This document shows positions 13,497-64,000 of a stretch of 64,000 nt of DNA, piece by piece. The stretch spans positions 4,402,001 through 4,466,000 of the forward strand of contig NZ_CP009451.1 of NCBI RefSeq assembly GCF_000757825.1. Reading direction: 5' to 3'. A program made the translations under genes and the position numbers. The notes under the pieces were generated by a model, which saw only the letters and a program-made list of their open reading frames with translations, was not told where the DNA came from and did not search any database. The DNA is from Cedecea neteri. GTDB taxonomy: Bacteria > Pseudomonadota > Gammaproteobacteria > Enterobacterales > Enterobacteriaceae. The number at the start of each line of letters is the position of its first letter. Within the stretch, counting starts at the first letter, position 1.

Positions 13497-13572
13497 TGGC
13501 TCCTCTGACTGGACTCGAACCAGTGACATACGGATTAACAGTCCGCCGTTCTACCGACTGAACTACAGAGGA
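13497..13572 (-). tRNA. tRNA-Asn(GTT), copy 2
   Basis: The 76-nt sequence is identical to copy 1, with anticodon GTT and encoded CCA. Confidence 0.97.
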
Positions 13573-23919: not shown

Positions 23920-23995
23920 TGGCTCCTCTGACTGGACTCGAACCAGTGACATACGGATTAACAGTCCGCCGTTCTACCGACTGAACTACAGAGGA
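23920..23995 (-). tRNA. tRNA-Asn(GTT), copy 3
   Basis: The 76-nt sequence is identical to the other copies, with anticodon GTT and encoded CCA. Confidence 0.97.
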
Positions 23996-36313: not shown

Positions 36314-36385
36314 GGGACCTCCTGTGTAAGTGGAGATCCGGGCGCGCAGAGGTATGAACAGGCAATAACACAGGCGAAATTGCCG

Positions 36386-36472
36386 ACCGTCCCTTCGCTG
36401 GCATGACCCAGATCAGGTTCAAAGGGTTCGGCTTACGCCATCTCAGCCCATACAGGACACCCCTCGGAGGTG
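36386..36472 (-). ncRNA. TPP riboswitch (THI element)
   Basis: On the minus strand the leader holds the conserved blocks GGCTGAGATGG, GAACCCTTTGAACCTGATC and GGGTCATGCCAGCGAAGGGA in order, preceded by GAGGGGTG. These are the diagnostic THI-box parts (CUGAGA and the ACCUGAUCUGG...GCCAGCGAAGGGA 3' half). It ends about 70 nt upstream of the tenA start, consistent with control of translation initiation or early termination by thiamine pyrophosphate. Confidence 0.95.
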
Positions 36473-36636
36473 CCTGTTATACGACATTTACTTTTTGATT
36501 ACAATCGTCAGGCGCTGTGCCTGGCCCCGATCAAACCGGTGATTCGTTTAGTGCGGTATCTCAATATTTTGCTGGCGTTTGGGGCGAAACTTTTGTCACT
36601 GTAGGCCGATTACCCCGAGTCTAAGGACGATATCCG

Positions 36637-44691: not shown

Positions 44692-44767
44692 TGGCTCCTC
44701 TGACTGGACTCGAACCAGTGACATACGGATTAACAGTCCGCCGTTCTACCGACTGAACTACAGAGGA
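44692..44767 (-). tRNA. tRNA-Asn(GTT), copy 4
   Basis: The 76-nt sequence is identical to the other copies. It forms the right border of the decayed island. Confidence 0.97.
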
Positions 44768-63599: not shown

Positions 63600-63951
63600 G
63601 AAGAGAATAAAGGGTATTTTTATCTCTCTTCCCGAGCAGTTTCTTTTCTTAAGCAAGAGGCTGTCTCTTGGTCATAAATACAGGGTTTTAAGTAGGTTCG
63701 GTAAAGGTTCCGTTCACTTCCAGAGCTGCTTCATATGTCACCACCGAACCGGTGAACGACTCGGGGAAGTCACCGTCACTTCCCCGAGACCCCGGACTCC
63801 CGGCTAAATAAATCGCCGCAAGCGGCAGACCTCCGTTTTATCTCCCAGTCCTGGGTCGGCTGAGATGCGTTCCCGACGCTCTCAGCCTCCGGTCGTTCCC
63901 GACGCCCGGACCCTGGCCAGTCGGAGAGAAAACGGAGGCGATTTAAGCCGG
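63600..63951. other. Densely structured DNA/RNA element, unidentified
   Basis: Nearly every part of this stretch is paired. Hairpin 63600-63631 (GAAGAGA/TCTCTTC with inner ATAAA/TTTAT). Hairpin 63654-63670 (CAAGAG/CTCTTG). Crossed pairs GGTTCGGT/ACCGAACC and CGTTCAC/GTGAACG at 63695-63758. An 11-bp hairpin CTCGGGGAAGT/ACTTCCCCGAG at 63760-63788. A nested palindrome 63800-63951 closed by CCGGCT/AGCCGG and CCTCCGTTTT/AAAACGGAGG, holding two inner hairpins. No conserved ORF or reverse transcriptase is seen. The coding strand is unknown. It may be a structured non-coding RNA, a mobile-element end or the leader of a gene beyond the window. Confidence 0.55.
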
Positions 63952-64000
63952 AACCGAGCCTCGCTTCAAACCCGCAGCTACACAGAACGTTACAGCTGCT

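Follow-up and report, generated by a model that had tools for sequence, protein, structure and literature searches.

A palindrome at the edge of a Cedecea neteri sequence as the probable module of a dispersed, MITE-like element with inverted RNA modules of putative CsrA type

Introduction

A nested palindrome lies at the right edge of the window, the whole stretch of 64,000 nucleotides of the Cedecea neteri genome that was analysed, and raises the question of whether it is an RNA of the adjoining gene, a DNA structure or part of something larger. The initial annotation, made from the letters of the sequence, described arms that begin with CCGGCT at 63800 and end with AGCCGG at 63951, an arm CCTCCGTTTT-A-TCTCC (63830-63845) pairing with GGAGA-G-AAAACGGAGG (63923-63938), and two inner hairpins (Table 1), each with the shared word GTTCCCGACGC. 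All of these are present at those positions.

The analysis led to the RNA family TwoAYGGAY (RF01731, clan CL00106). In the available text of a 2010 list, this family is a probable RNA that is probably not cis-regulatory (PMC2864571); Rfam, unlike that list, types it as Cis-reg. It was predicted in 2014 to bind CsrA, with Clostridia in mind as far as the accessible part of the source goes (PMC4333381), and the accessible part of a 2025 preprint describes it as still relatively unexplored. No description of TwoAYGGAY as a mobile or inverted-dimer element was found in the accessible passages of the open-access literature.

Folding and limits of the palindrome

Folded as RNA, positions 63800-63951 are far more stable than dinucleotide-shuffled sequence on both strands, with a minimum free energy of -78.7 kcal/mol on the plus strand (z -6.55) and -79.4 kcal/mol on the minus strand (z -5.35); on either strand, none of 200 shuffles was as stable. 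Two pairings that had been read as possible alternative states need not compete: the consensus fold contains both AATC/GATT (helix 6) and the CCTCCGTTTT arm (helix 7). The 152-nt palindrome is not the whole unit either: it is module A of a larger element that extends from 63661 to about 64130 in window numbering, past the end of the window. The view of this site as a structured element stands, while its repetition across the genome in at least 42 pieces and its true limits outside 63800-63951 had been overlooked. The single palindrome that was described likewise lacked the usual second, inverted module and the Tn5/IS50-like outer ends.

No Rfam family reaches its gathering score at the palindrome, which agrees with the earlier description of a structure matching no riboswitch, rRNA, tmRNA or retron, and which speaks against a riboswitch, a tRNA-like structure, a retron or another Rfam RNA at this place. 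A permissive Rfam scan of a complete copy from the same genome gave nothing credible, the best match being MIR8622 (E 0.03, 24.3 bits, cut-off 197). A link to TwoAYGGAY on the other strand, by way of intermediate genomes, had also been overlooked.

Elsewhere, the window contains a TPP riboswitch (RF00059, 73.3 bits) at 36373-36474 on the minus strand. Four tRNA matches, all of 72.6 bits and on the minus strand (243-315, 13500-13572, 23923-23995 and 44695-44767), span 44 kb and are possibly copies of one gene.

Architecture of the element

Table 1. Parts of the element in the window copy, in window numbering
Feature	Position	Strand	Remarks
Left outer end CTGTCTCTTGGTCATAAAT, Tn5/IS50-like	63661-63679	+	Same end type on other copies and on real NF033590-type insertion sequences
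Inner end TTCCGTTCAC	63708-63717	+	Partner GTGAACGGAA beyond the window, at 64121-64130
GTGAACG arm and side hairpin CTCGGGGAAGT/ACTTCCCCGAG	63752-63788		Helix 4
Module A, three-way-junction RNA	63799-63951	-	Predicted from folding, covariation and covariance model R1
Hairpin 1	63858-63887	-	Minus-strand loop CGGGA, GGA at 63873-63871
Hairpin 2	63888-63910	-	Minus-strand loop CGGGA, GGA at 63899-63897
Start of variable spacer	63952-64000		Most of module B deleted; element continues to about 64130

Alignment of 24 copies from the C. neteri genome, together with segment mapping, gave the order of parts. An outer end like CTGTCTCTTAGTCACAAAT is followed by the inner end TTCCGTTCAC, the GTGAACG arm with its side hairpin, module A and a variable spacer, and then by module B, a matching side hairpin, GTGAACGGAA and the right outer end. 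Module B is related to module A and lies on the opposite strand; such paired inverted modules are seen in the C. neteri copies, in Buttiauxella and in other genera. Both inner ends are found in 69 copies among the loci examined, and the commonest intact form measures about 572 nt between them, with Buttiauxella copies ranging from 539 to 588 nt between TTCCGTTCAC and GTGAACGGAA. In the window copy, module A is kept but most of module B is gone; its counterpart at this site in a related genome (G002, locus L139) is complete.

In a complete C. neteri copy (L004), open reading frames reach at most 94 codons, apart from one of 329 codons that touches the left edge only, and none gives any sign of being a gene. 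A crude scan for an internal promoter in the complete copy found none. The element is short, has no coding capacity and is present in many copies, as expected of a MITE.

The spacer of some copies contains REP-like hairpins. Many copies have hairpins of the form CCCTCTCCC..GGGAGAGGG..GGTGAGGG within them (the spacers of L012, L015, L016 and L018-L020), and hairpins of this form also stand at the corresponding sites of species without the element (intergenic regions L153-L159). Of 39 C. neteri copies, eight (L016, L028, L030, L034, L035, L036, L037 and L040) have next to them or inside them an IS110-type transposase gene, the product of which starts with MTLTSVGVDIAKLKFDVAV. This gene apparently inserts into the REP-like spacer hairpins; entry of IS110-family elements into REPs is already known from the accessible part of an earlier report (PMC1525189).

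Copy number and distribution

A 171-bp query from this site matched at least 42 pieces in the 4.88-Mb genome, at least 23 of which are full-length or nearly so, at 94-100% identity and with the window copy included; both numbers are lower bounds, drawn from the best 40 of 57 first-look candidates. At the DNA level, 10 of 118 relatives carry the element, and these include every one of the eight genomes of the genus in the set (the C. neteri genome counted); two genomes (G005 and G018) gave short DNA matches only. Scanning named genomes with an exact pattern located 63 stretches, which belong to Cedecea davisae, Enterobacteriaceae bacterium RIT693, Enterobacter sp. Ag1 and Cy-643, and Buttiauxella species. 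A distant-mode search of E. coli genomes, plasmids and phages gave no match, and viral contigs contained no exact-pattern match; on these grounds, an origin from a phage, a plasmid or E. coli was rejected.

With the covariance model R1, which describes module A, the module was found in 22 of 295 genomes of the family and in 12 of 154 genera, and many of the positive loci carry a plus/minus pair of modules. Counts per genome are lower bounds, being based on the best 10 matches for R1 and the best nine for RF01731. Two genomes of another genus (G119 and G241) have copies of about 700 bp that are 92-97% identical and carry Tn5-like ends, with no clean flank duplication as judged by eye. In G009, two loci (L210 and L211) hold several RNA modules close together and repeated ATTCCGTTCAC units, L210 combining two R1 matches with one RF01731 match; these clusters possibly reflect tandem growth.

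Covariation and conserved loops

From the 69 copies with both inner ends, 56 full copies of the Cedecea type and from Buttiauxella were aligned, giving a consensus fold of 124 pairs that are formed in 98.7% of cells; a second alignment took 42 of 78 cores. Among the 124 pairs, 29 are changed on both sides; shuffling, repeated 500 times, gives 10.1 ± 2.2 such pairs, and slid controls give 2-10. Derivation from the same alignment favours the structure over its slid versions, and related copies inflate the shuffle tests. Both the folding energy and the many compensatory changes thus bear out the initial annotation on conditions that it had set for its own refutation. In helix 4, eight of nine pairs are changed on both sides across the 56 copies, and one example reads GC in 30 copies, AU in 23 and GU in one, with few intermediates. 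In the wider R1 set, whose alignment was fitted to the structure, double changes affect 34 of 44 pairs, in 362 cells compared with 100 in shuffles.

The loops behave differently from the stems. Central hairpin loops of the minus-type strand contain GGA in 72 of 75 cases (36 modules, nine genera). On the opposite strand it is present in 2 of 76, and the remaining loops of the minus-type strand have it in 1 of 34. For this tally, the modules were hand-picked from 61 R1 matches, leaving out near-identical copies from G119, G241 and C. neteri, duplicate records and weak partial reverse matches of module A. R1 was built from sequences with a TCC loop word, so the search is biased to such loops, though few bits came from it. 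Module B entered the alignment of 56 copies without selection by its sequence. Here the four loops have 12 GGA columns, all of them invariant (55 or 56 letters each), compared with 21.4% of the 280 unpaired columns. The pairs that close the GGA loops show compensated changes, and the base preceding GGA is variable in all four loops, the change being confined to a single copy in three of them. The distance from GGA to GGA is 23-30 nt in all eight modules measured.

On the GGA strand, G-U pairs outnumber A-C pairs by 22 to 7 cells, a small excess in small numbers from related copies, which leans towards this strand as the RNA strand. If an RNA is made, the strand that matters is more likely the minus strand, whereas the initial annotation had read the plus strand.

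Relation to TwoAYGGAY

Matches to RF01731 (gathering score 43 bits) occur in 50 of the 295 family genomes at E 0.01, often in several copies; 21 genomes have matches above the cut-off, and none of 14 control genomes was matched. There is no match in four genomes of the genus Cedecea that were searched, in the window, in the complete copy L004 (nothing at E 1 or better) or in the C. neteri genome (G000). The two families meet elsewhere: RF01731 overlaps an R1 match on the opposite strand at L218 (51.9 bits; R1 E 5e-8) and L233 (43.2 bits; R1 E 6e-9), and at L216 and L219 RF01731 matches at or above the cut-off overlap weaker R1 matches (E 2e-4 and 3e-3). The GGA strand of L209 scores 38.4 bits, below the cut-off of 43, and is absent among the matches listed in the larger search. 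One TwoAYGGAY match (L222, G016) has the gene for the sRNA DsrA (Rfam RF00014) at a distance of about 750 bp.

Given the overlaps in these intermediate loci, the modules are most likely homologous to TwoAYGGAY. They form a divergent lineage related to it, arranged here as a MITE-like inverted dimer. Both have two GGA-loop hairpins in one structured domain and occur in several copies in many genomes. However, the copies of the genus Cedecea do not score with RF01731, the C. neteri copies have CGGGA rather than AYGGAY in their loops, and the element here is an inverted dimer with Tn5-like ends.

Features expected of CsrA sites

The host genome encodes CsrA. The CGGGA loops of the C. neteri copies lack the strict AYGGAY and are farther from the CsrA consensus, while distant loops read ACAGGGAUGU or ACAAGGAUGU and agree exactly with the core of the SELEX consensus RUACARGGAUGU, as given in the available text (PMC7652899). 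Exact ACARGGAUGU occurs in nine of the 36 modules and never on the opposite strand, with 0.01 expected by mononucleotide shuffling, the nine being non-independent. Most SELEX ligands have four or fewer contiguous pairs according to the same available text (PMC7652899), unlike the long stems of the element. A single CsrA dimer reportedly spans two sites at distances of 10-63 nt, best at more than 18, and the element has paired GGA hairpin loops whose spacing of 23-30 nt falls inside this range. The paired hairpins therefore look like CsrA docking sites and may be bound by CsrA.

Ends, target duplications and transposase

The outer ends resemble those of Tn5/IS50, clearly on some copies and in decayed form on many, the left-end score being below 11 of 16 in 46 of 99 copies. 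Four insertion sequences of the NF033590 type (one in G073 and three in G084) begin with CTGACTCTTATACACA or CTGTCTCTTGATCACA, have Tn5-like right ends and are flanked by direct repeats, which measure 9 bp in three of them and 10 bp in the fourth. The element shares with this type ends that begin CTGTCTCTT. One copy, L104, which is inserted inside a REP-like hairpin, has a perfect 9-bp duplication, CCCTCTGGG; a second locus (L008) has a duplication matching at 8 of 9 positions. In the test, which took in 53 of the 99 copies, these two duplications compare with a mean of 0.13 and a maximum of two in 200 shuffles. The absence of a duplication from the other 51 fits age, inversion or recombination, and is also evidence against recent movement.

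Unlike the insertion sequences, the element has no transposase gene, and the NF033590 transposase was found in none of the eight Cedecea genomes and in none of three further genomes (G119, G008 and G009). A search of 59 relatives found seven with any match and two over the cut-off, compared with three of 14 control genomes matched and none over it. At distant loci, Tn5-like ends were seen at one of 27 (L230, with one mismatch) and at none of the other 26, so such ends appear to be confined to one lineage, and the inner end TTCCGTTCAC also occurs beside several distant TwoAYGGAY-related loci. The element was probably once mobile and may have been transposed by a Tn5-type enzyme. Clean empty sites were sought at the positions of L003 and L012, where other species have REP-like hairpins or unrelated sequence, so the limits of the element and its duplications cannot be read from them. 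The window's own site in G006 has no obvious element by inspection of the unaligned sequence.

Orientation and gene context

At 27 sites, the flanks of a copy in RIT693 match those of a C. neteri copy. Relative to these flanks, 10 of the 27 elements are reversed and 17 keep their orientation, as expected if orientation is immaterial; eight of the ten inverted sites match on both flanks and two on one, and 12 further RIT693 copies have no flank match. Eight pairs compared directly, six from the RIT693 set and two from other genomes, have colinear flanks around a reversed element, with L037, L030 and L014 matched on one flank only. At the site of the window copy, G007 has the element in reverse (L001/L042). 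Such inversions could have arisen by recombination between the inverted arms or by conversion from another copy.

Of the 31 C. neteri copies without an IS110-type gene, 20 lie between convergent genes, nine between tandem and two between divergent genes by a crude ORF caller; among 18 related loci, 12 are convergent, five tandem, none divergent and one undetermined, and both sets of counts stand without a genome-wide background comparison. The window copy is one of the two between divergent genes and is therefore ill suited to a study of the proposed function. Copies with a single module in a tandem context divide three to two in orientation, with no readable bias.

Discussion

The palindrome is probably module A of a non-autonomous, MITE-like dispersed element with Tn5/IS50-like ends and inverted CsrA-type RNA modules. 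Direct support for this comes from the repetition, the two-module architecture, the ends, one clean duplication, the covariation, the invariant loop GGA and the overlap with RF01731 elsewhere; transcription, CsrA binding and its effect are predicted from these features. A complete copy carries two related RNA modules, inverted, inside its Tn5/IS50-like ends, and because of this arrangement a transcript from either side would hold one sense module. The sense module, here the minus strand, is predicted to fold into a three-way junction with two GGA-loop hairpins about 23-30 nt apart, whose GGAs may bind a CsrA dimer, as proposed for the Rfam TwoAYGGAY motif. At most copies one or both flanking genes read towards the element, so that read-through would make the module RNA a 3' tail, through which the element might be coupled to the read-through transcripts or to the pool of free CsrA.

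The main competing reading is a DNA-level palindrome, REPIN-like or cruciform, whose hairpins serve a mobility or recombination machinery and whose compensatory changes arise by template switching (quasi-palindrome correction) rather than by selection on RNA. Both strands fold nearly equally well, the double changes of helix 4 with few intermediates are what arm correction would yield, inversion at 10 of 27 orthologous sites indicates that the palindrome recombines, and copies adjoin REP-like hairpins. However, arm correction accounts for the stems and not for an unpaired loop GGA that stays invariant amid changing neighbours, and it leaves over the strand asymmetry of the loop word (72/75 versus 2/76). 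With the overlap with an RNA family, RF01731, and the excess of G-U over A-C pairs (22 versus 7) leaning towards RNA, this reading is judged unlikely.

It is improbable, too, that the element is a plain MITE whose stable RNA protects 3' ends, terminates transcription or insulates convergent genes without CsrA. The convergent placement of 20 of 31 C. neteri copies and 12 of 18 related loci would suit such a role, but it may instead reflect an insertion preference, as Tn5 has a preference for targets that are palindromic and supercoiled, and convergent genes often have REPs between them, according to the accessible part of the source (PMC1525189). A terminator scan found one site in the complete copy versus 0.8 expected, and the conserved loop triplets would be left unexplained. 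A regulatory RNA belonging to the single locus of the adjoining P-type ATPase gene (mgtA-like by sequence reading), left of the element, is hardly credible: the element lies upstream of this gene in C. neteri and G002, but the repeat distribution, with at least 42 pieces in the genome, already contradicts such a role, and at this site G007 has the copy in reverse, while G001, G003 and G004 have altered or decayed versions of it.

Several known systems resemble the proposed MITE-like element in part. Like CsrB, CsrC and RsmY-type sRNAs, it has paired hairpins with GGA loops; in contrast to them, it has no promoter that was found, many dispersed copies, two hairpins per module and no Rfam match. 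ERIC and REP/BIME/REPIN sequences are also dispersed intergenic palindromes of enterobacteria, and presumably differ from it in size, ends and sequence. The Coxiella element QMITE2 is likewise a MITE, with about 50 copies mostly in 3' UTRs or intergenic regions, a source of sRNA, and contains a REP entered by IS1111-type elements; it differs in its size of 150-190 bp, and the accessible text neither mentions CsrA nor describes an inverted pair of GGA modules (PMC5896051).

That TwoAYGGAY relatives form inverted dimers scattered through genomes, with transposon ends in one lineage, and that the loop GGA stays fixed while the stems change, turns a loose prediction of CsrA binding into one that can be tested directly. 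A wider view can be offered tentatively: a dyad-symmetric mobile class, present in many genera, may carry CsrA docking sites to gene 3' ends, giving one two-site module to each convergent transcript whichever way it is inserted or flipped, and its tens of copies per genome may act as a distributed CsrA sponge, with TwoAYGGAY as its RNA face. If this is true, the symmetry of the element would explain why inversions are tolerated at orthologous sites, and a transposable element would be a vehicle for rewiring a global post-transcriptional regulator.
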